A stretch of DNA of 28,710 bases from a virus, in IMG/VR virus record IMGVR_UViG_3300032235_000807, positions 1-28,710 of that record; one strand, given 5' to 3'. Every line of letters begins with the position of its first letter. Position 1 is the first letter of the stretch. Under the pieces are notes generated by a model that searched no databases, was not told where the DNA came from, and saw nothing but the letters and a program-made list of their open reading frames with translations. Of this stretch, positions 4,104 through 28,710 are shown piece by piece. The position numbers and the translations under genes are program-made.

Positions 4104-4112
4104 AGTAACCTA

Positions 4113-10211: not shown

Positions 10212-10219
10212 TATTTATT
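10212..10219 (-). promoter_or_regulatory. Candidate late promoter (AATAAATA) over the stop of the DUF4815-type gene
   Basis: Minus-strand AATAAATA includes the TAA stop of the 1867-residue gene and lies 18 nt before the ATG of the 819-residue gene. The fit to NATAAATA is good, but the leader would be very short (about 10 nt, with AAGG near its 5' end), which argues against a real promoter. Confidence 0.2.
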
Positions 10220-13200
10220 TTTTCTTTGCAGGTTTAGATGTAGAGGAGGCTTTAGGTGGGTTAGAGGGCGTAGGAGGAGGTGGTGGAGGCGATTTAGGTA
10301 ATACTTTAGAATTTGCAGATCCAGGACCTGGAACATAATTGGTCGCTCCAGCAGATTGGAGTTTTTTCAATATCCTGTCCCCATCATTTTGAGATAAATT
10401 GCCACTTGCGAGAGGATCTACATTCTTTACATTTAATCTATTAGCAACTTGTTCCACTGTTTTTACATTTGATCCAGGATGTAATTCCAAGTATGCTTGT
10501 ACTAGTCTATTTTGAGCTGCCTTAGCATAGACTGCACCTCCGCCATTAACTGACACTATTCTTGGTGCAGTTGGAGTTGATTGTGCAATTGGAGTTGATT
10601 GTGCAGTTGGAGTTGATTGTGGCGTGACACTAACAGGTTTTGGTGATGGTATATTATTCGAATAATATGGTGTAGATGCTACTGGATTATATGTTGGTAT
10701 TTCTGGATTATTTGGTGGTGGCTCACTAGGAACTTCAGGTGCAACTCTTGGTTTGCTTGTTGATAAAATATTTTCTTGTTTTTGATTCAAGAACCCTTGA
10801 GAATAGAACTTCTCTTCAGCTGAACAAAATACGATTCCAGGTACTAAAGAATTTGCAGAGCTGTTTGTAAGCTTGAATACTTTTTCTCCTGCGGTGAATC
10901 TTTTCTCATTTGATTTATTTGGTATCCTAAAAGATCCAATAAGAGATCCAACTTCATCAGTAATTAATCTTATGTTTTTAACTATTGCTATTGCACCACT
11001 AGTCATTCCTACTAGTCTCATTCCAACATGTATTTTACCAAAAAACTCAGAAATACCAGAGTATGATAAAGAATATGTGTCAACATTTAAAATTGTTGAG
11101 TTAGTAGAATATGAACTCGGTAAAACTTGAGATCTGTCATAAGGATTTGCATTATATATTTTTGTTGGTGAGTCATATGGTCCTACTTTGTGATTTGGCG
11201 TACATAGCCTAAATCTTATTGAATTGCGAGCTAATCCTTTTCTATTTGTTGAAAAATTATCTAAAGTCCTAAATGTATCATTGTTGATATTAGTTGAAAT
11301 TCCAACTGAATATCTTTTTATACTAGCTAAATCTTGAATTGGAATATTTACATCATCGAATCTATCCTTCAACAATGGAACATTTTGGCTTTTATTAGAT
11401 ATCCAAGAATTATAAGCTTGTAGTGTTCTACCAGTCACAACTTCACTTGCTTGGAATGTCCCACTTACCATTTCAATTTCAATTAATTTTGGCACGATGT
11501 TGCTATTTACATCTACATTATCAAAAAATGCATACATTCTAGTAAATGGTTTTAGTCTTTCCGCTTTAAATTCAATATTTCTAGATCTCATGTATGGGAT
11601 AACATCATTTGATACTACCGATTCACCAATAGATGTTTCGGGTAGAGATATTGTTGAGTTTGAATTAGTAACTGTTCTGATATTACTTGTAGTATTACTG
11701 GATATGTATGCTATTCCTGTTGTTTTTTTGTATTTGTGTGGATACTGGGAGTATATTGGATAAGATGAATATGGAGAGTACGCAAATGAATCCCTATAAT
11801 TCCAATACTTAGACCAACCCCTCCAAACAATGGGTAAAAATCCAGTATCTTCACTGTCTTCTGTCACTTCTACTTGTGTTTGGGATTCAGTTATATCACC
11901 ATCTAGTTCTATTTTATTTGGTTTTAATTTTTGTTGGCTTACCCATGTGTCAGATGATGGGTTCAATATTATACTTCCAGGATTTTCCGATGTACTATAT
12001 GAAGTTACATCTACAACCCTAGTAGAATAGGGTTGAGTATTTTCTACAACTTCAATATAATCTAGTGTTACCACATTTCCAGTTTTTTTGATATTTGTAG
12101 AAATGAAATCATTAGAATAATTTACATCAACGGCATTATTTTTATCTAATATTATACTAGATTGACCTATTATTAAATCGCAATTTGTGGTGTAGTGGCT
12201 TGGCCTTAAGATATTGTTTGAAATATCAATAGAATTTTTGACTATAGTGTCTTTTTGTTGATATACTGTAGTTGTAAAATTATCAACAAAAAATCCAGAT
12301 TTAAATCTTGGATTGCCATTATTATCCAATACATTTAATTCTGCCGTTTCCTTCTCCAGTAAAGAAAGAGTAGTATAATACTCTAGATTTTCAATTCTAT
12401 TTTCAAGTTTGCCAATATCTGACATTGTATAACGCTTATACTCTTTTTTCTCTATTGATATCGAATCAACAGAGAATGTATATGCCGGAACAAAAACACT
12501 TGCTAATTCTATAGAATCGTCTAGATCAAGAGGTGGTTGGGGAACTTCGGCTGGGTCTCCAGTTCTAACCTGGAATAATCCATTTTTGGATAATAGAATT
12601 TTATCTATTCTTGGTAGATAGAAAGAATATGAACAAGAAATAGATTCATCCGATGCTAAAATGTACTTGGATGAATTATTATAAGAACTGGAAAAATCTC
12701 TAGAATCAAACTCAAAAGGAGATTTTTTATTTTCCGCAACAATATACGAAGAAACTTTTGGCCTTATATCTATTAAATCGCTATTTCTTATGTTGTTTAC
12801 ACTTGGTATTTGCGAATAGTTAAAAGCTTGATATGAATTTACTGTAGTTATATCACCAACATCTGAATTTGAATATGATGAAGCACCAAAATAAATTTTT
12901 ATTTTTCTTATTGGCTCATTATACTGAGATTTTCGTATAATTCTAGAGTAATCATATATCGTACTTCTTTGGCCATCATCTAAAATATAATTTGAAAGTA
13001 TATCTTTATCGCCATCAGAGACAGAATTTACTATAGCTTCTACTGATGTAGTTTGAAATAATACTGATTCGCCATTTACGAATGTATTGTCGTTCAAATA
13101 TGTAAAACCTATTGTATTAGAATTTATTTTTTCTACACAAATAGCTATAGCATTACTAACCTGTCCTATAAAAGTTTCTCCTAAAACCAGATCATTTGTA

Positions 13201-15818
13201 CTAGAAGAAGCTCCACTTAAATTACTTAAAATAATTCTTGGACAATTTGGATCCAAATTTAGATTTGAACTATCAGATTGTTCAAATATTCCATATATTA
13301 AATTTACATCAGATTGTAGTAAACAAATCTCATCATCTTCCACTCTTGTTCCATAAGGATAATTACCATATGTAAGTCCATTATTTAAAGTTGTTTCTCC
13401 TATTCCAGATCCAACTAATCTTGATTTATCTACTACTATTGATTTTACTATGGAATTATCTTTTTTCTTTTCCTTTACATTATTTTTATTGAGAGTAGCT
13501 ATTAATTTTGCTGACCCACTAGAGGTGGTTAAACCATTAAATTTTATTGTTGTACCACCAGAAGAATTATAAACAGATACATCAAACATATCACTGGTCA
13601 ATTTCTGTGTAATGCCAGTTTCTGTGACTAATACATATCTTTCTTCGTCAAAAGGTAAGAATTTTTCATCTACATCTGCTGTAATATTTCCAGTAGAATT
13701 TGATGTGATAGTAACATCAAATTGCTTTCTGATAATCAAAACAGAGTTAGACAAATCTACATTACTTATATTTTCTTTTGGTAATTTAGTATATAAATTA
13801 TTGTCAACTGAAAGTATCGATTTAGTAGCCAATAATTTAAAATCAGATACAGAAATGTTAGAATTCGGAAGTCCACCATCACAAACTCCAGTTACACTTG
13901 TAATCCCAGATAAAGTCAGAGTAGTGGCAGTTACAGAAGTTACCTTGGAATATGTTGGATATAATTTTCCTTGTTCAGTATAAGATACTAAGTCTCCTAC
14001 ATTTATTACACCAGAAAATTGAGGAATATTAGAAGATACAGTTGATAACCCAGCAAACTGAGGTGATATATCAACAATCCCAAAATTAATTTTTTGAGTT
14101 TTTATTATATCTCCAGTAAAAGTTCCAGCAACGCCAACTAAACCATAAACAGATTTTACATCATCTAAAGTATAGTTCCTAATAGAAGTTGAAATTCTAG
14201 TTTTATCATCTTCTATGTCATTAAATATTAGTTTTTCGCCATTTATAAATGTTCCATTGATATTATAAGCAGTCAATATACCGGAATTAGATGCTGCAAA
14301 CTTTAAGAATGCCGTTGCTCCACTTGACTTCCCTTTAATGTAAGCAGGAACATTTAGAGTTAGGTTCTCATTAACTTGAATTTCAGAATATGTCTGTATG
14401 TCGTATAGGCATACATCCCATTCGTTAGCATCTGGTACTAATGTATTGTAAGATCCAGATTCCAATGAAAAATCATATACTCTTGCTAAACCTATTTCTT
14501 TACCAGTTATTTGACCAGAAATAGTGCCAACTCTGTCATTTCTCAAACTTATAGTATCAGTTGAAAATCCTATTTTAGGTGAACCAAATACTCTATTTAA
14601 AGAAAATGTTGATGCAGTATTATATACTATATTTTGATTCTCTATTCTTTTAGTGGATCTAGCTTTTTCGAAGTCTAAAAATATAGGAGATAAAGTTTCT
14701 ATCTCATAACCTTTTACATACGCCTTCAATGGTGAAATCTGATATGTCCCAAGATTTTCAGTAGGAACATTCCCACTAAAAGTTATTTGATTTGGATTAT
14801 ATATTCCTTCATTTCCTAAGAAATTATCTAAAGTTTCTTTTGTAACTATTGTTGGAGACTTTACATAGTAATCTCCAGATTCATCATATGTTCTTCTTGC
14901 TAGTTCTTTGCCAAGTTCATTTAATCTTGGATCTTGTTTTATTGATCTTACTATTCCGTCTCTGACTTCCAATAATTGAACAAAACTTTCTGGTATATCT
15001 TCATCTAAAGCGACCTTTGATAATATTAAAGATAGTCCAAATCTATCAGCTCCAGGAGCAGCATAATTTAAAAATCCATTTGCGTTATCATTTAAAGATT
15101 CGTCACTTTCTGATGTAATAATATCTTCTACTACCGTAAATCCTATTTTATAGCTAGGATTATTCTGATATTGGTCTAGTATAATATATTGTGGTGTATT
15201 TTTGACAAAATACCCTCGAACATAATATACCCCAGACTCAACTGAAACTTGGGATCCTACTGAATTACATTGGCTATCTATTGTTGTTGCAAATGCTTCA
15301 TTTGCTTGTAATTTCAAGATTGTATCTGGGTCTACAGATAGATATGCAGTTATATCTTCCTCTATTAAAATATTTTCACTATCTGAAAATCCTCTGTATT
15401 CTGATGTGGCATAATCAGAATCAAGATAAGTTACATAAATTGTAACATTATTTCTAATTGAAACTGTACTACTTATTACTGATAATATCCTTGCTCTAAC
15501 ACCACTAATTTGCCCTCGTACAGTTTTACCAATAAGACTCTCAATATATTCGAATACATCGATTCCATTGAAATTATTCTTTAACTCTACTGCATAATAT
15601 CTATCATTATATGTTATGGAGCCTGGAATTACTGGACTTCCTTCTTGAAATGCCCATTTTCCAAATTGTTCAACTTGATTTTGAAGTATCGATTGTATTA
15701 CATTTAATTCTCTTGCTTGTATGGGATAACCAGGCTTAAACAAAACCTTATGATAAATGTTGTCTGGATTAAAGTCATCAAAATATGGATAGACATTTAA
15801 GTTAGTTTTTTGTGGCAT
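10215..15818 (-). CDS. DUF4815-type structural protein with proline-rich C-terminal extension (1867 residues)
   Basis: A very large virion protein occupying the position of T4 genes 9-12. The N-terminus (TNLNVYPYFDDFNP, LFKPGYPIQARELNVIQSIL, WAFQEGSPVIPG) is the DUF4815 signature of T4-like cyanophage structural proteins. A predicted coiled coil lies at about 1135-1160 (IGKLENRIENLEYYTTLSLL). VIPYMRSRNIEFKAERLKPF (about 1400) and FTAGEKVFKLTNSS with EEKFYSQGF (about 1640-1670) are further family marks. A repeated SGAxAxV...GExV module occurs near 108, 497, 890 and 1600. After about 1680 the protein changes to Pro/Ser/Thr-rich linker with three QSTPxA repeats, a helical island (AAQNRLVQAYLELHPG, about 1765-1820), a run of six prolines (about 1843) and a basic end, KPAKKK. 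TAGG precedes the ATG. Baseplate or fibre attachment is likely; the function of the tail is unknown. Confidence 0.85.
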   Translation of the reverse strand: MPQKTNLNVYPYFDDFNPDNIYHKVLFKPGYPIQARELNVIQSILQNQVEQFGKWAFQEGSPVIPGSITYNDRYYAVELKNNFNGIDVFEYIESLIGKTVRGQISGVRARILSVISSTVSIRNNVTIYVTYLDSDYATSEYRGFSDSENILIEEDITAYLSVDPDTILKLQANEAFATTIDSQCNSVGSQVSVESGVYYVRGYFVKNTPQYIILDQYQNNPSYKIGFTVVEDIITSESDESLNDNANGFLNYAAPGADRFGLSLILSKVALDEDIPESFVQLLEVRDGIVRSIKQDPRLNELGKELARRTYDESGDYYVKSPTIVTKETLDNFLGNEGIYNPNQITFSGNVPTENLGTYQISPLKAYVKGYEIETLSPIFLDFEKARSTKRIENQNIVYNTASTFSLNRVFGSPKIGFSTDTISLRNDRVGTISGQITGKEIGLARVYDFSLESGSYNTLVPDANEWDVCLYDIQTYSEIQVNENLTLNVPAYIKGKSSGATAFLKFAASNSGILTAYNINGTFINGEKLIFNDIEDDKTRISTSIRNYTLDDVKSVYGLVGVAGTFTGDIIKTQKINFGIVDISPQFAGLSTVSSNIPQFSGVINVGDLVSYTEQGKLYPTYSKVTSVTATTLTLSGITSVTGVCDGGLPNSNISVSDFKLLATKSILSVDNNLYTKLPKENISNVDLSNSVLIIRKQFDVTITSNSTGNITADVDEKFLPFDEERYVLVTETGITQKLTSDMFDVSVYNSSGGTTIKFNGLTTSSGSAKLIATLNKNNVKEKKKDNSIVKSIVVDKSRLVGSGIGETTLNNGLTYGNYPYGTRVEDDEICLLQSDVNLIYGIFEQSDSSNLNLDPNCPRIILSNLSGASSSTNDLVLGETFIGQVSNAIAICVEKINSNTIGFTYLNDNTFVNGESVLFQTTSVEAIVNSVSDGDKDILSNYILDDGQRSTIYDYSRIIRKSQYNEPIRKIKIYFGASSYSNSDVGDITTVNSYQAFNYSQIPSVNNIRNSDLIDIRPKVSSYIVAENKKSPFEFDSRDFSSSYNNSSKYILASDESISCSYSFYLPRIDKILLSKNGLFQVRTGDPAEVPQPPLDLDDSIELASVFVPAYTFSVDSISIEKKEYKRYTMSDIGKLENRIENLEYYTTLSLLEKETAELNVLDNNGNPRFKSGFFVDNFTTTVYQQKDTIVKNSIDISNNILRPSHYTTNCDLIIGQSSIILDKNNAVDVNYSNDFISTNIKKTGNVVTLDYIEVVENTQPYSTRVVDVTSYSTSENPGSIILNPSSDTWVSQQKLKPNKIELDGDITESQTQVEVTEDSEDTGFLPIVWRGWSKYWNYRDSFAYSPYSSYPIYSQYPHKYKKTTGIAYISSNTTSNIRTVTNSNSTISLPETSIGESVVSNDVIPYMRSRNIEFKAERLKPFTRMYAFFDNVDVNSNIVPKLIEIEMVSGTFQASEVVTGRTLQAYNSWISNKSQNVPLLKDRFDDVNIPIQDLASIKRYSVGISTNINNDTFRTLDNFSTNRKGLARNSIRFRLCTPNHKVGPYDSPTKIYNANPYDRSQVLPSSYSTNSTILNVDTYSLSYSGISEFFGKIHVGMRLVGMTSGAIAIVKNIRLITDEVGSLIGSFRIPNKSNEKRFTAGEKVFKLTNSSANSLVPGIVFCSAEEKFYSQGFLNQKQENILSTSKPRVAPEVPSEPPPNNPEIPTYNPVASTPYYSNNIPSPKPVSVTPQSTPTAQSTPIAQSTPTAPRIVSVNGGGAVYAKAAQNRLVQAYLELHPGSNVKTVEQVANRLNVKNVDPLASGNLSQNDGDRILKKLQSAGATNYVPGPGSANSKVLPKSPPPPPPTPSNPPKASSTSKPAKKK
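10567..10620 (-). repeat. Three tandem 18-bp repeats in the DUF4815-type gene
   Basis: Three adjacent 18-bp units (plus strand gcagttggagttgattgt, the middle unit with one substitution, gcaattgg) encode QSTPTA-QSTPIA-QSTPTA in the proline-rich linker. The near-perfect DNA identity points to recent slippage, so linker length probably varies between relatives. Confidence 0.9.
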
Positions 15819-15833
15819 GGTTAACCTAACGAA

Positions 15834-17417
15834 TTAAAATTGTAAAATTACCTTGACATCTTCTTTTTGATTTGGAGACCTTGTGATGGAAGGTCTATTA
15901 TCAACATAAATTATATCTCCAGAATTTCGTTTTACTTCTGGAGCTGATACACCAGAAGTAAATTTTTGTCCTAAATTATAAGTAACATTATTTATTACTG
16001 TTGTTATTCCTGTATATGCTGAATCAATTTTTAATGTTAAATCAAATCCAGTAATATCCAAAGATCCACCATCCAAAACACTAGAAGTAAATTCAATTTT
16101 TTTATTTCCGTATAAAGGAGAATTATATGTCTTTCTAGTTCTATTTTCATTATATTCGCCATTTAAATTGAATCCATATAATGACCTATCTTGCCAATAT
16201 TTTAGGATTCCAGTTCTGTTGTCATATGAAATCACTCGCCCAACAGCAGTTATTCCTACTCCAATAGTTTGTGTTATAACTGAATCCGCATCAATAGAAA
16301 TATTTTGGTAGTCTTCTACTGAATTTTTTCCTACCAACTTTAATGCAGACGCAGCACTAACTCTCTCTTTAGTCAATACTGTATCTGAATCAAAATTTAA
16401 TGGATTATTTACAATCCCAATTCTAGCTATTTGGTTTCCAGTTATAAAATCTGGATTTGTCTGATCATTTTCAAATCTAGAATAAATTAAAACATTGTAA
16501 GCACCTAGTTCATTGTAAATGTCGTATCCATGACCTCCTTTTGGTGGAATAATGACATCAAACTTCGGTAAAATTGCATTAGAAGGAAATGAAATAGAAG
16601 ATAAATCTACTGTACCATATGTGTAACCGGTTCCACCTTTTACAACAAAAACAGAAGTTATTCTCTCATCATTTCCAACAACTATACTTATTTCCGCTCC
16701 AGTTCCATCACCAAGAATAGGTATATTTGAATATACTTTTGGTGAACCCAAATTTTGCCCAAAATTTGTAATCGTTACTACTTTGATTTGTCCACTAGAA
16801 GAAGCATTTAACCTAATTGATTCATAATCAGTTGATGTTTCCCAATCAGATGGCACAGGAATAAAATTTATGGAATCAAATTTTATAATATCTTCAATTT
16901 TTAAAGTATACAAATATTTCCATGTATATCCATCTTCTGTTGATCTTGGTTCCAAATCTATAAATGTAGGTTCAATTAAAGATGGAATTCCTTCAAAATT
17001 ATTATCGGGAGAAGCACCATTGTTTAAACAGACATAAACTTTATAATCTTTAGTTAAAACATAATAATTTGCTTTGTATAGACTAGTTTTTTGAGAAGGT
17101 TTAGCTAAATTATTCCTAGTAATGTCATGTCTATACATGTCATAAGTTGTCCCAGACTCCCATACAATTTTACTTATGACATTTTTGATGTCACTATCTG
17201 GATTTATTTTTTTTAAAGAAATTATAGTATCCCAGTAATCATTTTGATCATCAAAAGAATCTTTTGGTGGAGGAGAATTGACATCCCAATTTGCATCATA
17301 CTCATTTGCATTTGGCAAACCAACAAATGTGTATAGATTAGAATCTCCAGATTTTATGGAGCTTATAAAATTTTTTGAATTTAAAATTCTAATTTGATCA
17401 GTTATAATTGCTGACAT
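15834..17417 (-). CDS. gp8: Baseplate wedge protein gp8
   Basis: Homologue of T4 gp8, a component of the six baseplate wedges. DGYTWKYLYTLK (162-173) parallels T4 DGYVWEYLFEIP, and the C-terminal GDIIYVDNRPSITRSPNQKE (500-519) with VKVILQF parallels T4 GEMIYMENRPPI and INILFTF. The N-terminal ITDQIRILNSKNFI and ALPKF-type middle (PPKGGHGYDIYNELGAYNVL, 291-310; ITGNQIARIGIVNNP, 325-339) are typical of cyanophage gp8. It has 527 residues against 334 in T4. Part of the excess is a repeat-like insertion at about 208-275 (GDGTGAEISIV, then VFVVKGGTGYTYGTVDLSS) of the same kind as in gp14. The ATG at 17417 follows the 1497-residue gene by 21 nt and has only a weak ribosome site. It is the anchor that assigns the right half of the window to the baseplate. 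Confidence 0.92.
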   Translation of the reverse strand: MSAIITDQIRILNSKNFISSIKSGDSNLYTFVGLPNANEYDANWDVNSPPPKDSFDDQNDYWDTIISLKKINPDSDIKNVISKIVWESGTTYDMYRHDITRNNLAKPSQKTSLYKANYYVLTKDYKVYVCLNNGASPDNNFEGIPSLIEPTFIDLEPRSTEDGYTWKYLYTLKIEDIIKFDSINFIPVPSDWETSTDYESIRLNASSSGQIKVVTITNFGQNLGSPKVYSNIPILGDGTGAEISIVVGNDERITSVFVVKGGTGYTYGTVDLSSISFPSNAILPKFDVIIPPKGGHGYDIYNELGAYNVLIYSRFENDQTNPDFITGNQIARIGIVNNPLNFDSDTVLTKERVSAASALKLVGKNSVEDYQNISIDADSVITQTIGVGITAVGRVISYDNRTGILKYWQDRSLYGFNLNGEYNENRTRKTYNSPLYGNKKIEFTSSVLDGGSLDITGFDLTLKIDSAYTGITTVINNVTYNLGQKFTSGVSAPEVKRNSGDIIYVDNRPSITRSPNQKEDVKVILQF

Positions 17418-17435: not shown

Positions 17436-17443
17436 TATTTATG
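17436..17443 (-). promoter_or_regulatory. Candidate late promoter (CATAAATA) of gp8
   Basis: Minus-strand CATAAATA is the same octamer as before gp18. It contains the TAA stop of the 1497-residue gene and lies 18 nt before the gp8 ATG, leaving a leader of about 12 nt. The match is good, but the short leader and AT-rich context keep this tentative. Confidence 0.3.
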
Positions 17444-20400
17444 TCGAATAGTTAAAATACTTTAATGGTGCTTTTCTTCTTACTAATGGAGTGGTATTTA
17501 ACCCTATTACACCATTGTCAGTCGTTAAAGTAAATTCTTTTGGATTAACTCTTCTATTTAGTTCAAAATCAATCAATCCCCAATTATAATTTCCATAATA
17601 GTTACTGAATCCCAATCCAGATAATCCATTGTAATTTTCAACGCTGACTACAACCTTAGCTACATCAGTGAGACCTATTCCATATGCGGATGTCTGCGCG
17701 ATAGACACAGATATAACTTCATATACATTATCAATAGAAGTTGTTCCAATTCCAATTATATTTCCACTACTAGTTAAAGAATTTAGTTTATTTCCAATAT
17801 TACTATTATTAATTTCAAAGAAATATCCAGGTTTTATTTCACTGGTTGTTATTTGGGGATCTAAAGTTCTAAGATATGAATTTGCTGGAACTAATAAATC
17901 TAAAACTAGACCAGTTTGAGCTACGCCAACAATTGAAGTAAATGCAATTCCACTAATTATTCCAAAATCACCTGTATAATTTACTCCAGATATAGTTTCC
18001 ACTTTAGGTGTAGGTGGCTCAATTGCAACTAGTGGCGGATTCAAATCTGTGTATCCAGAACCAACTCCTACTATATTAAATGAAATTATTTTTTTATTAG
18101 ATATATTTGAAGTTATAATTGCGGTAGATCCAACTCCAACCGGATTTTGTATATAAACTTTAGGTGAAGTGTAATAACCGTCCCCAGAATTTACAAGATT
18201 CACAGAGCTAATTTCTCCATTATTATTTACAGTCACTGTAGCAGATGCTGATACTAAATTATCCTGGGAAATTATTTCCACTGTTTTACTTAACTGAGAA
18301 TTATTATTTTCCTTGTCATTTTCAAAGAAAGTCTTTACATTTTGAACAAATAATTGAGTTGAACCTATGCCAACACTTCTTATTAACCCAGTAGAAGGGA
18401 ATATTAGTGGTTCATATATTGGTCTATCTTTTGTAACTATTGATCCATCTATAAAAATATCATCTTTTTGTCTTGTCCAAGTTAATGGTCTAAGTAATTG
18501 GGAATCGCCATAAATTCCTTTTCCTTTATATAAGTTTGTTTTTGCTACATCTACAGTTGGAATCTCTTGTACTAATCTAGAATCTTGTTGGTACGCATAG
18601 TTTTCACTATCGAGTTTAACTACATCTCCTACTTTTATTGTCTCTAATATATCGACATCAATTACATCTATTCCTTCTGTGCCTCTATAGAATATTATTT
18701 TAAACTTATCTGTATTTCCATTTGGATATCTCTTTAAAGGTTCAGATAATGTAATTGTACTTCCACCATTAAATACATAACCAATACCAGGCTCTTGTAA
18801 GATATCATTTACAAAAACTAACAATGTAGATTGTATATCTATATTAGATCCAGGTTTTGCAACAACTGCAAATCGATTACCTTGATACATCAAAGGGAAT
18901 GTTCTTTTTCTATTATTAATTAAATATGAAACATCATCCAATAATCTTAAGCTTCCAATAGACCAACCTGAAAATGAATCATTAAAAACTTGAGTCACAT
19001 AGATTAAAAATGGACTGAAGCCTGGTGTAGTCGGTATACCAATATTTCCTTGTATTGGTAATGTTAATACATCATTTATATTATATTTGTACCCAAAGTT
19101 TTTAATTTTAAAGTCAATTACACTAGAACCTTGACCAACAACAATATCAATAGTAGCTTCTGTTCCAATTCCTGTGCCATTCGAATAAACTAAAGGTATA
19201 TCAGAATACGATAGTGGCTCATCAAAAATTACAAGGGGCAATTCATATTCTTTTATATTCACATCTGTATCAATTGGAATAATTGATGCTGCTGCATTTG
19301 CAGCGGATATAAACACGCAAGTGTCGGCAACTGAAACTATGGGAACATTATCAAATATTGAATTTATTTGAATTATAGGATTTACTCTAGGTACTTTGGA
19401 TGTATTAACTAATGGTATTATAGTAGATCCAATTGATATCTGTTCACTAGTTGTCGTAGAATATACAAATGGGTATGCAGTATATCCAATTCCAGGATTT
19501 GTTATTGAAACGCCAACTATATTTCCATTAGATATTGTAGCAGTTCCAACGAATTCAACATTCGCTGAGGTGGAGCTAAAAGTTTGAACCCCAACTTTTA
19601 CTAGTTGATAATTCTGTCTATATCCAGATCCACTATTTCCAATACTTATACTTTGTATTGTCCCAGCAATAGAAACTGACGCAGTTCCACCAGCACAAAC
19701 TAACGGCTGATATCCAAGACCAGAACTTGACCCAATTGAAAGTATCACCCCTCCTCTTGGTATATCAAAAAGATTTGGATCATAAGTCATTGTTGTGGCA
19801 GTTCCAGTAAATTCTAGTTCTGTACTTGAACCTAGTTCATTGATTATAAAATCGTCATTTGGAATTTGTAAAATATTATTAATTAAGACAATTGAATTAT
19901 TGTTAGAAACATCTGTTAAAGCTACACCAGATTGTGTCAACTCAAACACATTTTCAGTAGAATTAAACTGATATGATAAATCATCAAACAAATAATTTTT
20001 ATTATATGTGTCTTCTAATACTAATGGATTTGCTGATCTTATAAATGTTCTTCCTTGAAATCTAGATTTAGCTAAAGTCAGAAGAGATGTGGATTGCGAA
20101 TCTTTAAATTCATCTTCTTCTGGAAATGGACCATATGGTGCATCAGAAAAGTGAATGACATTGTTTATAATGTTATAATTTCCTTTTAATTTTGTTACTG
20201 TATTACCAGAATAATGCGAAGATATTCCAGTTCCAAGCCAAGGTCTTACTACACCAACATTTCCTGTACTTCCAACTCCAACAGACTCAATTTTCATAAT
20301 CTCATTATTAACTTTAATGATATCTCCACTGAAAAATGAAGTAATACCGGAAAAAACTAAAGTTAAATCACTTAAATTTACATCTTGGATTAAGCTAGAT

Positions 20401-21932
20401 GTTATTGAAGTTGAAACAATTGGAGATTGTATAATGTTGTCTATTGCAATTATGGCCTTAGAATTTTGATCAGTTGCGGTAATATAATGTAAAGTATCTA
20501 CACCTAAAGAGGTAAAATCAAATAATTTTGGGGGGACACTTAAAGCATCATTTGGACTTGAACATAATCCTATTCTAGCATTATCAAACTTATATACATA
20601 TGCTTCAAATGGGAGTTTATCTGTAACTCCAATTCCAGAAATCGAAGTTGCTGCTATACCTATCGATTTTACAGTTGAAGTCTTGTTAAATTGTTGGGAT
20701 CTATATGAAACTTTTTCTCCGGTCACAAAAAAATGATTTGGTAAATATAATAAATCTTGTTGTAAATTTACATTAAAAGGATCACTAGCGTCAAATGCTC
20801 TCTCAAATATTGGTAAATCCTTGTAAGTTAAATTAAAATTAGTTCTATTATTATTTTCATCATTAGTTCCTACTTTACTAACTGAAGTTACAATTTGTGA
20901 ATTTTTTAAATCGATTACAGATGGGAATTCCGAAAACTGAGTAAAGCCTAATGATTGTTGAAATACTAAAACTTCAGTTTCAATATTTGGTAGAGGAGTA
21001 AAGAACACCTCAAATTTACCAGATGTGTTTATCTCAAAATCACCTAAATTTACATCAGAAACTACTCTTCCATATAATACTCCATATGATTCTGTTAAGT
21101 TATTTAATGTATATAATTCAGAAAAATCGACTCTATTGTTGGTCAGATCAGTTACTTGGATTAAGTAATAAGCAGATTGATAATCTAAAGAATGCGTCAT
21201 TATAGTAGTCAATACTGGACTACTGCTAGCTGGAATTATTACTTTATTACTAGAAAGATTTGCGTATCTTAATTGCTGTTCTCCTTGCGCTGAATAATCA
21301 GTTTTAGCTAAAGATACTGATACTGTATTACAAGTGTACTCTTTGTTAATATTAAAAGGGAAAAAATCTACCTTAATACTTTCTCCATCTTTATAGCAGT
21401 TATATGTCCCAATACCAGACGCTGGATCCACATTTATATTCAATCTACCATATTCGGTGCTGTATATATTTCCATTTTTGTCCGAAGCTATATTAATTTC
21501 ATTAAATTCAAATTCATCATCTGCACTGGTTATTTCAACTACTACTTTCGATGAGCTAAATTTTTCTGGTAAAGCTAATATAGTTCCCGACGAACCGATA
21601 GAAATTGTAGTATTTGATGATCCAATACTAACACTGTCACTAACTATGATACTAGAAGACGACTGAATGAACTTTTTGGTGTCATAATATACATATCCAT
21701 ATGAATAGTCGTTTATTTTTCCATCAGTTGGAAAAAACTCTAAAATGGCCTGATCGGAAATAATACTTATAGAATAATTTCCAATATCTAAACCACTGTA
21801 AAGTTTTGCATAGTCATTTTCAATTACAACAGAGCCATCATTTATTAGGGTTAAAACTGAAGACTGCACAATTTGGCTGTCTATGTCGTTTTGAACAGTT
21901 AAAAATACTTTTAGTGCTCTTGTTTTTGCCAT
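17439..21932 (-). CDS. Large virion structural protein, 1497 residues (baseplate/tail periphery)
   Basis: I recognise this as a type of giant structural protein from T4-like cyanophages, without a proven function. It sits directly before gp8, roughly where T4 has gp7, but I see no convincing similarity to T4 gp7. Visible parts: an N-terminal domain (MAKTRALKVFLTVQNDIDSQ); an HFFVTGEKVSYRSQ module (about 396) followed by IGLCSSPNDAL; an RPWLGTGISSHYSG module (about 563); GGxGY-type repeats near 768, 812, 1245 and 1291; and a domain at about 1030-1085 with LLVFVNDILQEPGIGYVFNG and then FKIIFYRGTEG, preceded near 690 by a shorter copy (IVLINNILQIPN). The C-terminus (WGLIDF, LVRRKAPLKYFNYST) is a recurrent ending in this family. 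No signal peptide or membrane helix is seen. It starts 4 nt after the upstream stop with no Shine-Dalgarno, which suggests coupling. Confidence 0.82.
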   Translation of the reverse strand: MAKTRALKVFLTVQNDIDSQIVQSSVLTLINDGSVVIENDYAKLYSGLDIGNYSISIISDQAILEFFPTDGKINDYSYGYVYYDTKKFIQSSSSIIVSDSVSIGSSNTTISIGSSGTILALPEKFSSSKVVVEITSADDEFEFNEINIASDKNGNIYSTEYGRLNINVDPASGIGTYNCYKDGESIKVDFFPFNINKEYTCNTVSVSLAKTDYSAQGEQQLRYANLSSNKVIIPASSSPVLTTIMTHSLDYQSAYYLIQVTDLTNNRVDFSELYTLNNLTESYGVLYGRVVSDVNLGDFEINTSGKFEVFFTPLPNIETEVLVFQQSLGFTQFSEFPSVIDLKNSQIVTSVSKVGTNDENNNRTNFNLTYKDLPIFERAFDASDPFNVNLQQDLLYLPNHFFVTGEKVSYRSQQFNKTSTVKSIGIAATSISGIGVTDKLPFEAYVYKFDNARIGLCSSPNDALSVPPKLFDFTSLGVDTLHYITATDQNSKAIIAIDNIIQSPIVSTSITSSLIQDVNLSDLTLVFSGITSFFSGDIIKVNNEIMKIESVGVGSTGNVGVVRPWLGTGISSHYSGNTVTKLKGNYNIINNVIHFSDAPYGPFPEEDEFKDSQSTSLLTLAKSRFQGRTFIRSANPLVLEDTYNKNYLFDDLSYQFNSTENVFELTQSGVALTDVSNNNSIVLINNILQIPNDDFIINELGSSTELEFTGTATTMTYDPNLFDIPRGGVILSIGSSSGLGYQPLVCAGGTASVSIAGTIQSISIGNSGSGYRQNYQLVKVGVQTFSSTSANVEFVGTATISNGNIVGVSITNPGIGYTAYPFVYSTTTSEQISIGSTIIPLVNTSKVPRVNPIIQINSIFDNVPIVSVADTCVFISAANAAASIIPIDTDVNIKEYELPLVIFDEPLSYSDIPLVYSNGTGIGTEATIDIVVGQGSSVIDFKIKNFGYKYNINDVLTLPIQGNIGIPTTPGFSPFLIYVTQVFNDSFSGWSIGSLRLLDDVSYLINNRKRTFPLMYQGNRFAVVAKPGSNIDIQSTLLVFVNDILQEPGIGYVFNGGSTITLSEPLKRYPNGNTDKFKIIFYRGTEGIDVIDVDILETIKVGDVVKLDSENYAYQQDSRLVQEIPTVDVAKTNLYKGKGIYGDSQLLRPLTWTRQKDDIFIDGSIVTKDRPIYEPLIFPSTGLIRSVGIGSTQLFVQNVKTFFENDKENNNSQLSKTVEIISQDNLVSASATVTVNNNGEISSVNLVNSGDGYYTSPKVYIQNPVGVGSTAIITSNISNKKIISFNIVGVGSGYTDLNPPLVAIEPPTPKVETISGVNYTGDFGIISGIAFTSIVGVAQTGLVLDLLVPANSYLRTLDPQITTSEIKPGYFFEINNSNIGNKLNSLTSSGNIIGIGTTSIDNVYEVISVSIAQTSAYGIGLTDVAKVVVSVENYNGLSGLGFSNYYGNYNWGLIDFELNRRVNPKEFTLTTDNGVIGLNTTPLVRRKAPLKYFNYST

Positions 21933-21936
21933 TTTA

Positions 21937-24900
21937 TTAAATATCGATTGCTGTTACTAAAGTTGACTTTCGGTTTGTATTGAATTCTCCACTTATGTCA
22001 TCAATTACTAGAACTCTATTTCCCACAGACTGCGAATAGTCCTGCAGGATAGTAGAATTTAGTGTAATTTCATCTGTAGCAGTTTGTGAATTGAGGATAA
22101 ATACATTTTCTTCAGACGCTAAATCAAAGTCATATGTAGTTTCTAGGTCTATAATGGTATTTAGATCCGATACTCCAGTGAAATTTCCAAAATTTTGATC
22201 AGTGGACATGCCAACTTTTTCAGGTGTTTCGGACTCAACGGATAGGTCACCAAATTTTTTGAATCCAGAAGTATGATTTAGTGAGTTGACTGTGCCTTCC
22301 CATTTATCAATTGATACTCTAGATTTTATAGAATATGAAAAATATTGGTAATAATCATTATCATGAACTCTTTGGCTATTAACATTTAAAAATCCAGTTT
22401 GAGTTTTCCAACCTTTACTTCCGATTGAATAGTAATCAATTTCATAAAATCCATGTAAATCTAGTATTTCTTGTATTTTACCCAAAGAACCGCTACTTTT
22501 ACCGATTAATATTGAATTTGAATCAAATTTTTGTGTTGTTTGTATTTTAATGTAGTTAGTTTTTGGATTCCAGTTATTCACTATTCCAACGGACCCATTA
22601 GATTCTACCTTTTCCCCAACAATATATGAATTTTTCTTGATTTTAACATCAAAAGTCGGCATATTTTTGACTGGAACTATACTCCCTTTAGAGGTCTCTG
22701 AATCAAATGTTCCAACTTCAACTCCACCAATGACATCACCAATATAATATGTAATGTATGCTTTATCGTCATCAATTGCCGTGCTAATTCCAACTACATT
22801 AAATGTTGAATAATTATAATCACTAGAATTATATCCTTTGTATATTACTCCATCTGTAATAAAATCTGGACTAGATTGTATTATTGTAGTATCTTCAACA
22901 AAAACTTTGTCATTCAAATCAACTGGGAATGTATCTGGGTTTGTGAAATTATAATTTAATGTTGCTGTAACTCTTTTTAAAATGGGATCATATGTTATTG
23001 AATTGATTCCTATTCCATTTGAATTATTTGTGGAGACTATCTTAGGTTCAGTATCATTGAACCCACTTGAATTTTGAATTATTTGGACATCCCCAGTCAA
23101 GTGATTAAAATCAAGAATAACATCTTGTATTTGATTTGTTACTGAGTCTAAAACTATCAAAGTTGGAGAATAATTATAAAATTTACCTTTAAATGTAGTT
23201 TTTATTTGATCGATGGCAGAAAAAGGTTCTATTCTAAGAACTTTAGGTAAGTCCAAGCAAGGTTTAATTGTTGGATCAATAGAATATCCATATCCTATGT
23301 CATCTAACTTTGTTGATTTTATTCTCCCAATGTGGCTACTTATTGGATATAGTACGGCATCTAGTCCATTTTGACTAGTTATAGACGATATTCCTGGTAT
23401 TTTAGTATAATAATTTCCACCTGAAACCAATTTTATTGAATTTATTGGCCCAAAGGCAGTCTTGGAATTAGTATTATACTTAAGAGATGAATTACTTGAA
23501 GTATAATTTGAAATTTCTGGTAATTCCTTAATCTGATAACTAAATGTACTTGATGATAAAACTGTTATTTTATTATTTCCACTATATTTACTTTCAACTA
23601 TAGAGATTTTGTTGAACTCTATTTTATTACCTTCAGCGACTAATTCTTTCTTTATTTGGGGTAAATCGGAATTAGAAGATGGAATTAAATTGTAATATAA
23701 TGTGTTTGGTGTACTATCTGTTATTTGTAATTCAACCCTTGCATCTAAATTTAATCCAATATTACCAAATTTAAATACATTTGAAATGTCATTTGAATCT
23801 TTGTAATATTCTTTGTTGAATTTTTCATCATAGTATAAATTAAAATCAAATGCTGACTTTAGTTCTAATCCATTATTATATGCTAAAGAAGGATGTGATA
23901 AATCAAATATTATTTTTTGATTTCTAGTCGCTTCGATTTTTGCATTTATCTCGTAAAAATAGCCAGAACAAGATGATGTAAAATCAATATTAGTGTAATT
24001 CAGGTAATTGTAAATTGAATTGGAAAGTTGGAATTTATCTTTATCTATTAAAATAACAAAATAAATTTGATTGTCAATTAATTCTGGAGAAATAGTTTCA
24101 GAAATGTATAACAATTCTTGGCCATTGCTATAACCATGATTAGTGATTGTAAATACATTATCTAAAATATCAATACTAGAGAAGTATTTTTTATTAAATA
24201 TTAATCTTCTATTGTAATCATTGTATTCTATTTTTATCGTAGTTGATATTCCAGACTTGACCTCAATGTCAACTAAGTCATTAGACACTAATCCATGAGT
24301 AGAAGAAGTAGAAACTACCACCGAATTTTTATTGGCAGTTAATTTTATGACATTTGTATAATTAGTCCTAAAACTATGGTTTACTCCTAATCCCAAATCA
24401 GTTACATATAGGAACGAAGTTGTTGTTCCTACACCAACATAATTATTATCTGTTCCTATTGCTACTTTATTACTAGATATTCCTATAAAATTATCAGATA
24501 ATTTTATAGAATATAGAGGATTGGATGTGTTTAAATTGAATATACTAGAACCATTAGAAACTACAATAGGATTTCCACCATTTGTGGAATATACTAAAGG
24601 TGTATTGGTATCTAAATTGTGATTTGGAAAATATAAATTCCCAGGTGGAATGAAAAGATTAGTTTTTCCAGTACCAACATAATCTACTTGGACTGTTGAT
24701 CCAGAAGTTGTACCAAATCCAACTACTTTTGTTGGGTCAAAATAAAATTCTCGGTTTATTTTTTGTGGAACATATTCTTCATTTAAATCAAAAGTAAATT
24801 TTCTAGTAAGTTCAGTTAATTTTAAATTTTTTAAATGTGAAGTTCCAGAAGGAGATCTTAATACTTTTATTTTAGATCTTTCTTTATCAACTTGTAATAT

Positions 24901-27900
24901 TTTAACAGTTTCATTTTCTATTTGATAATAATCATTTTCAAATATAAATGGAAATTCTAGATTGCCATAAACTTGGAATTCAGTGACTATACCTGTTGTT
25001 GTAGAGTCATTTACATCTGAGGTAAGAATAAGTATATGAGAACTAACTCCCACTTGGACGAGTGAATTCAATTGTAAGTTATAGTTACTAATTAAGTTCA
25101 GGTAATCAAATTTCTTTAATTGATGTGGACTAGTACAGATTCCTATAAATTGATTAGATTTATATAATTCAATGTCAGATATTGAATACAAATTATTTTG
25201 TATTGATTGTACTGATTTCCCAATAACGGAATCTACTATGGCACTTACATCAAAACCGTTAGTTTCGGAATTATCAAAATTTATTACATCACCAACATTA
25301 TAATAGTTACCAGAAGTGATTATACCAATGGAATCTAAACGAGAATATTGTATAGAAGTTATTTTTGAATTTTGGTTTGAATCTTTTGCTGGGTTCAATA
25401 AAAAGTCATAACTTGAATTTTTTCCAGTTAATGCATAATAATAGGTATTTCTTATTAATTTATTTTTAGTGTAATCGAAAGTATTTTGATTTATATCAGA
25501 ATTAAAATTATCTAATATCTTTTTAGATTTAAATTTATTGCCTATAAAATATGGAAATTCTGGAACAAAATCATTATCACTTGAAATTGTAGTAAAATAT
25601 GCATATACTCCATTTGGATATTCGGGTGTAACACAATATCTTCCATTGAATTCGTCCAAATCTCCATTAGAAGTAAACTCATAATCTTCTATAAATGTAC
25701 CATAAGGGAATATTATTCTGTCCTCAATTTTTTCTGGGGGTCTATTTTCAGACACTACAGTGGAATATCCAGATTTAATTTTTTTGACCTGTCCAGGTAA
25801 GTATGGATTTTCGTATCCATACGGTCCATATATTGGATTTCCATCATATGCCCAACCAATTATTGGGGAATGATATTTAATAGTTGATACGCTATTTTCG
25901 TAATCTGGTCTTCTTACAATATTTCCGTTATCATCTAAGAATGTCGAATATATTTTCTTTCGTAATTCATATGGGCAATATAGATGGCAATATTTAAGAG
26001 CATTTGCAGTATTTGAATATAATGTTCCATCGTCATTTGATTTCAACTGAGTTGAATTTAATATTCTACTAGTTAAGTTCAAATTCCATGATTTTATTTT
26101 GGCATTAAATGCCGCTCCTGAACCTAGATTGATTATGTCAATGATAGTATTTTTTTGATCATATCCAGATCCACCACTTACTACTATTACTTTTTTAATA
26201 GAACCATTTTCTAACACAGGTGTCAAAATACACCCACTGCCAGTTCCTCTCACTGCCAACTGAGGGAGAGAATAATAATCTGAGCCACCATTTAAAACAT
26301 AAACATCTATTACTTTGCCATTTAATACATTTACTATAAGTTGAGCATTTTTTCCAGACTTTAGGATAAAATTTGGTTGCTTTTCATAATTTAATATTTC
26401 TGAACTTCCATACCCAACTCCACCTTCTTCAATATAAACATTTGAAATTTCCCCCCTAAAAATAGGAGATAAAATTGGAGCAAACAGTTCTTTTGAATAA
26501 GATGATATTCCAGTTCTTGCTGAAACTTGTATTGATATTGGTTCATGTTGGAATATATGTGTTCCAATTCCAGAACTTTTTAAATTTACATATTGATTTG
26601 TATTATAATAGAAATCTTTCGATGTAGATCCGATTCCTACATATGATAATTTAAATGAATCATCGTTTACTTTTGTCACATAATACTTAGATTGATTCAA
26701 ACCTTCTGCAGGCGTACCTAAACAATTATAGTTGACAATATCGCCAGTAGAATAACCATGATTTTTTGCTAAAATTATATCATTGTAAGTGTTTATGCCA
26801 ACTGGTAGAATTGGCACATAATTGTTTTTGTATCCTCCACCAGAATTCAATATAGTTACTGATGCTATTTTTCTCTTTTCTTGCTTTGATGATAGCTTAT
26901 GTGTACCATCACCAAATGAAGTCAAATTAATTTCAATTCCATTTAAAGCATCAGTTTTATTTTTATGTAATTTTATTTTCAGGTCATCTTGAACAGTTAC
27001 AAAATAACTTGATAGGGTTGATATTCCACCTACTGATGTGTTTCCATTTGTATCGTATATTACTTCCTCGTAGTCCCTAAATTTATGATAAGTGGAAAAT
27101 GAAATGGTATTTTCTACTAAATTTACAAAGTTCAATATAGGGTTAAAATCAACTTCGTGTTTAAATGAAATTAAATTAGCTTTTGTTTCTACATTTGTGC
27201 CATTGCCACCAATAATTTTTATTGTGGGCTCATCTAGAATATCAAATCCACCATCTACAACATTAACTTCTTCTATTCTTCCAGTAACCTCAACATGGGC
27301 TTTACATATTCTAGTAGTGGTATTTTCTGGAGATACCTCTAAACTGGGAAGATTTATTACATCGTATGAATTTCCAGGTGATGTTATCTCTATTTTTTCT
27401 ATTGGTCCATAATAAACAAAATCATCTGACTTGTAATTTAATATTTCTACTCCATTCACTAAAATTCCAGTAGTTCCAAATGTCGTTTCTTCGAATTCTA
27501 GGGGAGTTTCTGGTAAAGTTAATTTTTTGATGGAGTTTGAGTTTGTTAATATTTTCTTAGAATTTTCGTATACAAAATTACTTTTATATAATTTTGCTGT
27601 TATCTGAGAAGTTATTTTTTCCCATTGATTTAAATTATAAGTATAATACCAAATTTCAATATTATTAAAATCATCAAATAATATTACAAACTCATTTGTT
27701 TGTAGGAAATAGCTTCCAGCTAATAATTGAACTTTTTGTTCATATGTATATGATACTTCATTTAAATTATTAGACGAATATAATCGATTGTACTTTATGG
27801 AATTATACCTATTAAAGTAAATATTTGATCTACTTTTATATAACTTTATTTTTCTATCAGATATTGATTCAACATAATAAATTTGGTTTTCAAACAAACC

Positions 27901-28710
27901 ATCATAAATGTTTAAATTGATAGTTCTCCCATCATTTAATGTATATTCTGAAAAATTTTGTATATAAAATACAGAATCTCCATTTTTAAAGTCATGAACT
28001 TGAGATGTATTCAATTCAAATTCTTGATTATTAATTTCGCATGAAATACCATTTTTTGAATCTTCTAGTGATTGGAAAAGGCCAAAAAAGTTTATGGAAA
28101 AATCCTTATCTTCTATGTTTGAACTAACATAATCTGGGATTCCCTGTGATGTGATGTATACATCATTAAATCTGTCAACATATACATTTTGTACATTATT
28201 GACAATTAATTCACCGTTTATATTTTCATACTTTTTAATCGCTTTTCTTATTTGATATATTTTACTTATTTGATATGGATTGACCACAAAGATTGAATTC
28301 GCATCCTGTGATACTCCCACTACATCGAAAATTTCTGTCCTAATGTCTTGAATGGTAGTATCAAAGAATTCAACATAAACCTGATCTAATGGATTTATTA
28401 AATTTTTATCGTGAGTGTAAATTCGAATTTGATTTGCGCCAACAGATTCGAATTTAGATACTAGATAAGTATTTGGTGTTTCGGTTATCCACTTACTGTA
28501 TCTAACACCATCGTATACTTTACCTAATGTATTAAAACTTATTATATCGCCTTTTTCATAATACTTGTTATTTTCTGGTAATTCTAGATCTTTAATTACA
28601 CCAAGTATTCTAACTCTTATTTCCTCTTCATTTAAGATAGAGTAAGCATATACATTTAGATTTATATCTTCTCGCAAAGATATTTCTTCTGTTATGCCAC
28701 TACATCCTAC
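21937..28710 (-). CDS. Giant YHYH-domain virion protein, 5' end outside the window
   Basis: An open frame runs from the right edge to TAA at 21939-21937, giving at least 2257 residues. No ATG starts it: the first in-frame start-like codon is a TTG at 28677, while codons before it (VGCSGITEEIS) look like normal coding, so the true start lies off the window. Numbering from the edge, residues about 915-1060 match the YHYH domain: IGWAYDGNPIYGPYGYENPY, YGTFIEDYEF, GDLDEFNGRYCVTPEYPNGV, FPYFIG. Around it are many short repeats: HGFxTGDxVxY-type modules near 241, 542, 652, 1474 and 1522, and GGxGY-type repeats near 624, 766, 811, 849, 1764 and 1809. It is probably a baseplate or host-facing tail protein, from its position before gp8 and its similarity in style to cyanophage structural proteins. 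A gp7-like role by position is possible but not shown by sequence. Confidence 0.85.
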   Translation of the reverse strand, partial: VGCSGITEEISLREDINLNVYAYSILNEEEIRVRILGVIKDLELPENNKYYEKGDIISFNTLGKVYDGVRYSKWITETPNTYLVSKFESVGANQIRIYTHDKNLINPLDQVYVEFFDTTIQDIRTEIFDVVGVSQDANSIFVVNPYQISKIYQIRKAIKKYENINGELIVNNVQNVYVDRFNDVYITSQGIPDYVSSNIEDKDFSINFFGLFQSLEDSKNGISCEINNQEFELNTSQVHDFKNGDSVFYIQNFSEYTLNDGRTINLNIYDGLFENQIYYVESISDRKIKLYKSRSNIYFNRYNSIKYNRLYSSNNLNEVSYTYEQKVQLLAGSYFLQTNEFVILFDDFNNIEIWYYTYNLNQWEKITSQITAKLYKSNFVYENSKKILTNSNSIKKLTLPETPLEFEETTFGTTGILVNGVEILNYKSDDFVYYGPIEKIEITSPGNSYDVINLPSLEVSPENTTTRICKAHVEVTGRIEEVNVVDGGFDILDEPTIKIIGGNGTNVETKANLISFKHEVDFNPILNFVNLVENTISFSTYHKFRDYEEVIYDTNGNTSVGGISTLSSYFVTVQDDLKIKLHKNKTDALNGIEINLTSFGDGTHKLSSKQEKRKIASVTILNSGGGYKNNYVPILPVGINTYNDIILAKNHGYSTGDIVNYNCLGTPAEGLNQSKYYVTKVNDDSFKLSYVGIGSTSKDFYYNTNQYVNLKSSGIGTHIFQHEPISIQVSARTGISSYSKELFAPILSPIFRGEISNVYIEEGGVGYGSSEILNYEKQPNFILKSGKNAQLIVNVLNGKVIDVYVLNGGSDYYSLPQLAVRGTGSGCILTPVLENGSIKKVIVVSGGSGYDQKNTIIDIINLGSGAAFNAKIKSWNLNLTSRILNSTQLKSNDDGTLYSNTANALKYCHLYCPYELRKKIYSTFLDDNGNIVRRPDYENSVSTIKYHSPIIGWAYDGNPIYGPYGYENPYLPGQVKKIKSGYSTVVSENRPPEKIEDRIIFPYGTFIEDYEFTSNGDLDEFNGRYCVTPEYPNGVYAYFTTISSDNDFVPEFPYFIGNKFKSKKILDNFNSDINQNTFDYTKNKLIRNTYYYALTGKNSSYDFLLNPAKDSNQNSKITSIQYSRLDSIGIITSGNYYNVGDVINFDNSETNGFDVSAIVDSVIGKSVQSIQNNLYSISDIELYKSNQFIGICTSPHQLKKFDYLNLISNYNLQLNSLVQVGVSSHILILTSDVNDSTTTGIVTEFQVYGNLEFPFIFENDYYQIENETVKILQVDKERSKIKVLRSPSGTSHLKNLKLTELTRKFTFDLNEEYVPQKINREFYFDPTKVVGFGTTSGSTVQVDYVGTGKTNLFIPPGNLYFPNHNLDTNTPLVYSTNGGNPIVVSNGSSIFNLNTSNPLYSIKLSDNFIGISSNKVAIGTDNNYVGVGTTTSFLYVTDLGLGVNHSFRTNYTNVIKLTANKNSVVVSTSSTHGLVSNDLVDIEVKSGISTTIKIEYNDYNRRLIFNKKYFSSIDILDNVFTITNHGYSNGQELLYISETISPELIDNQIYFVILIDKDKFQLSNSIYNYLNYTNIDFTSSCSGYFYEINAKIEATRNQKIIFDLSHPSLAYNNGLELKSAFDFNLYYDEKFNKEYYKDSNDISNVFKFGNIGLNLDARVELQITDSTPNTLYYNLIPSSNSDLPQIKKELVAEGNKIEFNKISIVESKYSGNNKITVLSSSTFSYQIKELPEISNYTSSNSSLKYNTNSKTAFGPINSIKLVSGGNYYTKIPGISSITSQNGLDAVLYPISSHIGRIKSTKLDDIGYGYSIDPTIKPCLDLPKVLRIEPFSAIDQIKTTFKGKFYNYSPTLIVLDSVTNQIQDVILDFNHLTGDVQIIQNSSGFNDTEPKIVSTNNSNGIGINSITYDPILKRVTATLNYNFTNPDTFPVDLNDKVFVEDTTIIQSSPDFITDGVIYKGYNSSDYNYSTFNVVGISTAIDDDKAYITYYIGDVIGGVEVGTFDSETSKGSIVPVKNMPTFDVKIKKNSYIVGEKVESNGSVGIVNNWNPKTNYIKIQTTQKFDSNSILIGKSSGSLGKIQEILDLHGFYEIDYYSIGSKGWKTQTGFLNVNSQRVHDNDYYQYFSYSIKSRVSIDKWEGTVNSLNHTSGFKKFGDLSVESETPEKVGMSTDQNFGNFTGVSDLNTIIDLETTYDFDLASEENVFILNSQTATDEITLNSTILQDYSQSVGNRVLVIDDISGEFNTNRKSTLVTAIDI

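Follow-up and report, generated by a model that had tools for sequence, protein, structure and literature searches.

The giant baseplate-wedge protein of a cyanomyophage-like phage carries a derived YHYH domain: probable loss of the predicted metal site and apparent division by insertions

RESULTS

Gene content of the window

The window, by which we mean the whole stretch of viral DNA analysed here, is a 28.7 kb fragment (28,710 nucleotides, 31% GC). Its large terminase is 72–75% identical to those of Synechococcus phages (best 12 matches) and its gp8 shows 54–56% identity, mostly with Synechococcus phages (best 12 matches). By its gene content and these matches, the window derives from a cyanomyophage-like T4-type phage. 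The ORF of principal concern probably occupies the gp7/VrlC position (Table 1), with a match to phrog_2885 and with gp8 downstream; its 5′ end is possibly cut by the window edge (the frame is open to 28710, giving 2257 aa), and the N-terminal end of the protein may lie beyond the window. Relatives of this giant protein match PF23786 weakly (3.1e-4 and 0.014, below the cut-off). Downstream of the giant gene are gp8 and phrog_358, along with genes for neck, sheath stabiliser, terminase and sheath.

The C-terminal part of the phrog_2885 family is found in a separate downstream ORF, and at the split point (window 21932–21937) the stop and the next ATG are four bases apart. This junction (..TAIDI and stop, then ATGGCAAAAACAAGAGC) is identical in two other loci (L291 and L296) and similar in a third (L298); because it recurs in this way, the split of the gene looks genuine in one lineage. 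Past the matching point the frame is open in 79 of 111 phage loci and meets a stop in 8 of 111, and in the same comparison 24 of the 111 end less than 1380 residues beyond the DG motif. As a separate observation, phrog_358 (2056 positions) is also split between two adjacent ORFs, 7735–10194 corresponding to profile positions 1422–2054 and 10215–15818 to positions 1–1411. Between both terminase genes lies an ORF of 536 aa (window 2008–3618) that matches only PHROGs of unknown function.

Table 1. Coordinates of the features discussed (window positions unless a locus is named)
Feature	Coordinates	Strand	Basis
gp8 baseplate wedge	15834..17417	(-)	PF09215 E 1.7e-9; phrog_438
Downstream ORF with C-terminal part of phrog_2885 family (split gene)	17439..21932	(-)	phrog_2885 positions 3542-4176
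Giant baseplate-wedge protein ORF (gp7/VrlC position), 2246 aa	21937..28677	(-)	phrog_2885 'baseplate wedge subunit', 1607.8 bits
C-terminal piece of YHYH domain, residues 895-1075	25453..25995	(-)	PF14240 83 bits; bacterial-subgroup HMM 120.5 bits (residues 932-1075); hhalign E 1.4e-49
Terminal motif YAYF, residues 1025-1028	25594..25605	(-)	sequence; phage alignment
YCHLYCP, residues 896-902, counterpart of bacterial YHYHxxP; both outer His replaced	25972..25992	(-)	alignment anchored on P and xLR
Insertion 2, ~430 aa, between middle and C-terminal piece	25996..27288	(-)	residues 480-860 against bacterial profile: hhalign E 0.62
Second predicted beta barrel in insertion 2, residues 617-712	26542..26829	(-)	phi92 endosialidase 4hiz Z 7.6, rmsd 2.4, 73 aligned, 26% identity
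Predicted small beta barrel in insertion 2, residues 505-599	26881..27165	(-)	VIA-align Z 9.3, rmsd 2.0, 76 aligned (ubiquitin E1 barrel, 9qgg); K1F endosialidase 1v0e Z 6.1
Middle piece, residues 375-463, with GILVNGVEILNYKS, counterpart of bacterial GxIGxxxNGV stretch	27289..27555	(-)	profile 91-176, 10.6 bits; hhalign prob 91.5, E 8.5e-7, 41 columns
Insertion 1, ~185 aa, between first and middle piece	27556..28110	(-)	residues 215-330 against bacterial profile: hhalign E 0.29
First piece, residues 157-189, LIVNNVQNVYVDRFNDVYITSQGIPDYVSSNIE, counterpart of anVQkVxYSa.VYI...GIPsY; weakest	28111..28209	(-)	profile 55-86, 1.4 bits; hhalign prob 9.8, E 0.0032, 33 columns
Small YHYH protein, phrog_2576, annotated hypothetical	L312:1402-3165; L317:1001-2722		between giant structural gene and gp9

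Assignment of the domain

A sequence-only reading of this DNA had placed a YHYH domain, related to those of bacterial secreted proteins, within a phage structural protein, and the Pfam profile upholds both the domain, which lies in the baseplate-wedge protein, and the family tie. PF14240 matches residues 932–1032 of the giant protein with E 2.8e-23 and 83.3 bits, far above the curated cut-off of 25, and a search of the whole 28.7 kb fragment returned one place only (86 bits, 25582–25887, minus strand). The minus-strand frame contains the letters that had been quoted, YHSPIIGWAYDGNPIYG at 25825–25875, YAYF, and FPYFIG at 25540–25557. The giant-protein copy is a member of the YHYH family, and 463 of 50,697 phage records match it. 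A chance match for the region was also considered, and is ruled out by the PF14240 E-value and by shuffles.

The Pfam match covers profile positions 89–183 of 193, and this is the sole single stretch; it does not continue over most of the profile (~1–193). The first half of the domain is matched instead as distant colinear pieces, with a bacterial-subgroup profile in place of Pfam's. The bounds first proposed for the domain, 25500–25980, consequently hold for its C-terminal part, but not as the limits of the whole, the first-half pieces lying further upstream (Table 1). In a quick tree of 153 rows, 41 phage giant rows cluster together (support 91) beside a Bacteroidota/Verrucomicrobia-type bacterial subgroup (support 71, which is weak), for which we infer the 'Verrucomicrobia-type' label; two continuous phage copies are placed elsewhere in this tree, on long branches.

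Terminal and upstream motifs

The bacterial counts come from PF14240 searches of four phyla, from which the best 30, 30, 30 and 20 matches were taken and 90 of 105 frames with a domain match were counted (L180–L279). Two further bacterial samples were six genomes picked via a motif-biased scan (16 of 20 frames counted, L166–L179) and that scan together with two plasmids (89 of 92 frames counted, L082–L165). For the phage giants, 116 of 118 proteins were counted, 100 of them distinct; alignment A2 holds the window and 56 of 60 non-redundant loci, and alignment A3 holds 53 of 70 regions.

The terminal motif YAYF had been taken as a His-to-Phe loss particular to this copy, which is refuted by the aligned phage copies, where the site holds Ala in 81/81 and Phe in 80/81, and by the bacterial subgroup nearest the phages (Bacteroidota, Verrucomicrobia-type), which likewise reads YAYF. 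Among the 90 counted bacterial copies (matches listed, four phyla) the terminal site varies, with YAYF in 16, YHYH in about 15, YHYV in 11, YGYY in nine, YAYY in seven and rarer types besides; the value for YHYH is approximate because, of 20 rows found by pattern, at least five (L215, L217, L234, L251 and L254) are mis-anchored or cut. Terminal YHYH is the state of one other bacterial subfamily, whose copies also hold the upstream motif, so that the expectation of a terminal YH-type motif is correct for that subfamily but not as a near-universal feature of the family, the near-universal motif lying upstream. The result that the sequence-only reading had named as counting against it, Phe being normal in phage and bacterial copies alike, is thereby half borne out: it is so for the phages and the nearest bacterial subgroup, and not for most other bacteria. 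Since YAYF is found in that subgroup and in nearly all phage copies, the terminal Phe represents a subfamily state and not a change in the window copy.

The near-universal motif (H...YHYH) sits upstream of the DGxPIYG block in bacteria. Its HxH is kept in 88 of the 90 counted bacterial copies (phylum searches, matches listed), the two rows without it (L215 and L217) being among the mis-anchored ones, and in 89/89 copies of the scan that was picked partly by a YHY pattern and joined with two plasmid copies; moreover, AH(V)QP.G.YHYH is invariant in the 53-sequence alignment A3, which is drawn from the motif-biased scan. In contrast, none of the 116 counted phage giants has HxH in the 80 residues that precede the DG motif. 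The window reads YCHLYCPYELR at the upstream site, outside the Pfam-matched part, and its relatives read YAHL/YTHL-type sequences. The register follows from the Pro and the Leu-Arg after the motif, from hhalign and from the named cyanophages, in which it is clear (GGEYAHLSNPQRLRYVLGDN opposite the bacterial YHYHAQPIALRYQLGDH of L248); on the 81-copy phage alignment it was set by eye, because MAFFT had placed the bacterial pair of that alignment in the wrong register. The two AlphaFold models agree in having a strand ahead of the same Pro and a helix right after it (residues 125–127 and 132–138 in the bacterial model, 765–769 and 774–779 in the phage model). The DG(N/F)PIYG and NGR...TPE.P.G.Y.Y core is retained in the giant-protein copy, which, since the upstream H...YHYH motif is absent, is best called a derived homologue inside the PF14240 family, as opposed to a canonical YHYH domain. 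L280, a viral copy that is continuous, is also without HxH, and therefore loss of the histidines and splitting are not strictly coupled.

For the YHYH domains of jumbo phages, PMC7824862 predicts a hydrolase function and a Zn site made up of three His and one Asp. The upstream histidines of the bacterial copies most likely form the predicted Zn site, and we infer that the His triad of that prediction corresponds to the upstream H...YHYH residues. Set against this prediction, the giant copy has kept the DG Asp and has lost the upstream histidines. Because H...YHYH is replaced by YCHLYCP, or by YAHL/YTHL-type sequences in relatives, the predicted metal site is probably lost in the giant-protein copy. 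The loss of metal binding raised as a possibility in the sequence-only reading is therefore now a probable one, but the cause argued for it is displaced, given that the missing histidines are the upstream ones.

Division into colinear pieces

Matched with the bacterial-subgroup profile (22 proteins, 379 positions), the window protein contains three pieces that are colinear with it, the C-terminal one covering profile positions 211–369. Of 2000 shuffles of the first 900 residues, 1343 produced a match of some kind and none reached the 10.6 bits of the middle piece (best 5.9); among ten other ORFs of the window, nine gave some match to the profile, the best at 0.2 bits.

The upstream piece is recurrent in phage giants. 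Among 105 such proteins with at least 750 residues upstream (near-identical contigs included), it scores above 0 bits in 100 and above 5 bits in 89, and is absent in five (L022, L067, L070, L072 and L298); the best of the shuffled controls reached 3.6 bits. Its end lies 500–545 residues before the DG motif in 81 of the 100, the others ranging from 314 to 894. In P-HM2, S-SZBM1, S-RIM12, ACG-2014d and metaG-MbCM1, pieces 1 and 2 form one match of 45–51 bits, with some 240–330 further residues between the joined pieces and the next one; all five named cyanophage giants in which the region is present show this, S-SSM2 being cut there. We suggest from these alignments that the pieces may fold together as one YHYH domain over residues 157–1075, and that the domain would be opened by a single insertion in the named cyanophages but twice in the lineage of the window.

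A Foldseek search of viral models gave A0A482IHF7_1 with TMq 0.69 over 461 columns for a query of 259 residues (rmsd 16.4), which, as a comparison of models, suggests the match expected of an inserted domain. The same search gave I3UL96_3 (a 1480-residue stretch) with TMq 0.79 over 278 columns; this protein looks continuous, and therefore not every large viral protein with the YHYH fold need be split. A further interrupted YHYH copy was observed in the 'gp7 baseplate wedge initiator' of metaG-MbCM1 (L316:26429-29386), in which a long stretch separates the DGYPIYG block from the terminal one; ahead of this copy stands a YYYCANHRYMSG motif that we take to be cupredoxin-like.

Insertions and structural models

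The AlphaFold model of a bacterial YHYH domain has pLDDT 91.1 and pTM 0.89; that of phage residues 130–1090 has pLDDT 81.0 and pTM 0.74, and has the same strand–helix order round the motif. No solved structure of the YHYH fold was matched by sequence (0 matches) or by fold search (none at E <= 0.001, and none at Z >= 2 among 186 chains), an absence that does not prove a new fold. From the model of residues 130–1090 two small beta barrels can be read within insertion 2, and their likeness to endosialidase barrels is a modest one (VIA Z 6.1–7.6, on a predicted model). A relation of insertion 2 to endosialidases by sequence was tried and gave no PDB match. PF12195 matches the giant protein at E 0.15 over residues 1126–1156, outside the insertion, and no endosialidase catalytic domain was matched in the giant protein (Pfam, E 1).

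A small YHYH protein and bacterial architectures

Cyanophages ACG-2014d (AIX19095.1) and S-RIM14 (AOO13851.1) encode a small YHYH protein with a continuous domain, in which GGH...NG.YHYH is intact and YAYF stands at the end; the gp9 beside its gene is annotated as baseplate wedge tail fiber connector. In its C-terminal part, the ACG-2014d protein gives a weak match to an extracellular PHA depolymerase model (6e-6, 25.9 bits, below the 150-bit cut-off), and a GxSxG turn with possible Asp and His can be picked out by eye in both proteins; phmmer found no match for the hydrolase part in the PDB. A single place covers at least 80% of the small protein in 63 of 453 phage records with a match, 48 of the 63 at 99% identity or above.

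In ten long bacterial YHYH frames that were scanned, the partners were sulfatase (L176 and L212), arylsulfotransferase (L235), a metallo-beta-lactamase-type domain (L180), PEBP (L232), a type IX secretion tail (L196), Calx-beta (L187) and Ig domains (L245), and two frames held nothing else; the bacterial YHYH protein of L190 has a type IX tail too. Judged by these partners, such architectures would fit secreted proteins, some with polymer-modifying partners. The fusions to sulfatase, metallo-beta-lactamase-type and arylsulfotransferase domains are in themselves a hint of secreted polymer chemistry.

DISCUSSION

The analyses presented here place a YHYH domain in the baseplate-wedge protein of a marine T4-like phage. 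We favour, at somewhat better than even confidence, an explanation in which this copy is a derived YHYH domain, devoid of its metal, split by two insertions and likely a non-catalytic part of the wedge. One bacterial-type domain would have been opened by the two insertions and spread over residues 157–1075 and, being without the upstream histidines, would serve as a non-catalytic structural or scaffold core of the baseplate wedge. The inserted beta modules, that is, the two predicted endosialidase-like barrels, may project from this core, possibly toward host glycans, and any enzymatic YHYH role would belong to the small protein with its histidines intact. Endosialidase barrels bind glycans. 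The giant copy is most likely a non-catalytic scaffold or receptor-contact domain, and a contact with the host surface is a possible role.

That the YHYH domain itself acts as an adhesin, binding carbohydrates or a receptor, is an idea compatible with the explanation favoured here, but we hold it to be rather doubtful. It would agree with the listing of YHYH as such a module for pelagimyophages in PMC7029224, with the sulfatase and arylsulfotransferase partners among the ten long bacterial frames and with the barrels predicted in insertion 2, whereas, of the 67 invariant columns in A2, 39 fall at or after window residue 906, and such strong conservation of the C-terminal core suits a structural role better than a receptor-binding face, which would be expected to change fast. 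Considerably less probable is a truncated half-domain, in which only residues ~895–1075 are YHYH-derived and the upstream matches reflect a general resemblance among beta strands; the Pfam coverage in the window (profile positions 89–183 only) and the low upstream scores there (1.4 and 10.6 bits) point in this direction, but the upstream piece recurs with comparable spacing in 100 of 105 proteins, none of the 525 shuffled controls scores above 5 bits, and the joined matches of the named cyanophages speak against chance resemblance. Least probable of all, and quite unlikely, is a metal-dependent hydrolase with a site rewired to the remaining histidines and the DG Asp, for although His is conserved in Y-x-H (79/81) and HSPIIG (81/81) of the phage copies, the Asp is invariant in the 57 sequences of A2 and PMC7824862 predicts a Zn hydrolase for jumbo phage YHYH domains, both HxH histidines have given way to other residues in the phage giants counted, no His stands in the stretch aligned ahead of the motif in named cyanophages (FNNQYGGEYAHLS), and the His of Y-x-H replaces the middle bacterial residue (Tyr, or His in YHHH) and not an outer His, and is itself gone in some divergent giants (L281–L283: YVICGYS, YSVCGYS).

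Returning to the derived, non-catalytic wedge domain, we raise tentatively, and with less than even confidence, a broader picture in which marine T4-like phages captured a secreted bacterial enzyme-type domain into the baseplate, where it lost its metal site and became a scaffold via insertion of glycan-binding-like barrels (a pseudoenzyme over ~920 residues), while some cyanophages also kept an intact-His YHYH–alpha/beta hydrolase copy by the baseplate genes, so that a dead/alive paralogue pair would stand at the tail tip. The occurrence of YHYH domains in such baseplates is already published (PMC7824862, PMC7029224). In a limited check of the open-access literature we found no report of the missing histidines in giant copies, the splitting of the domain or the dead/alive pairing, nor did we find in that literature an experiment that addresses what any YHYH domain does.

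Marine phage baseplates often contain YHYH domains, for which membership in a new class of tail-associated metal hydrolases has been proposed, a proposal that fits the small YHYH–hydrolase proteins better than the giant-protein copies, and the Pfam match, moreover, spans only half of the YHYH domain. The enzyme idea thereby becomes testable on the right protein, in a fold without a solved structure in the searches made here.

Comparison with known systems

The T4 gp7/VrlC wedge proteins of cyano- and pelagimyophages have phrog_2885 ('baseplate wedge subunit') in common with the window protein; the homologous gene comes after gp6 in P-HM2 and ACG-2014d, and several records label it gp7, baseplate wedge initiator or VrlC, although this likeness is drawn from phrog_2885 and gene position, with an N-terminal end that is possibly beyond the window. 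The barrels predicted in insertion 2 align to the beta-barrel domains of the phi92 and K1F phage endosialidases, a likeness of predicted structure only, and the window protein differs from these enzymes in having no matched catalytic domain (Pfam, E 1).

With the bacterial YAYF subgroup (Bacteroidota/Verrucomicrobia-type) the giant copy shares HSPLIG.A.DG.PIYG.YGY and LDE.NGRFC.TPE.P.GTYAYF.TI...PY, as well as the NVQxVxY..VYI..G.P.Y and G.IG...NGV pieces, whose order is kept. The bacterial domain is uninterrupted and carries GH...YHYH or YHHH, whereas the giant copy of the phage has no such histidines and apparently two insertions. Finally, the small phrog_2576 protein resembles the giant copy in belonging to the YHYH family, in its terminal YAYF and in having a gene that adjoins the giant structural gene, but, unlike it, is continuous, keeps its histidines intact and is fused to an alpha/beta-hydrolase-like domain.
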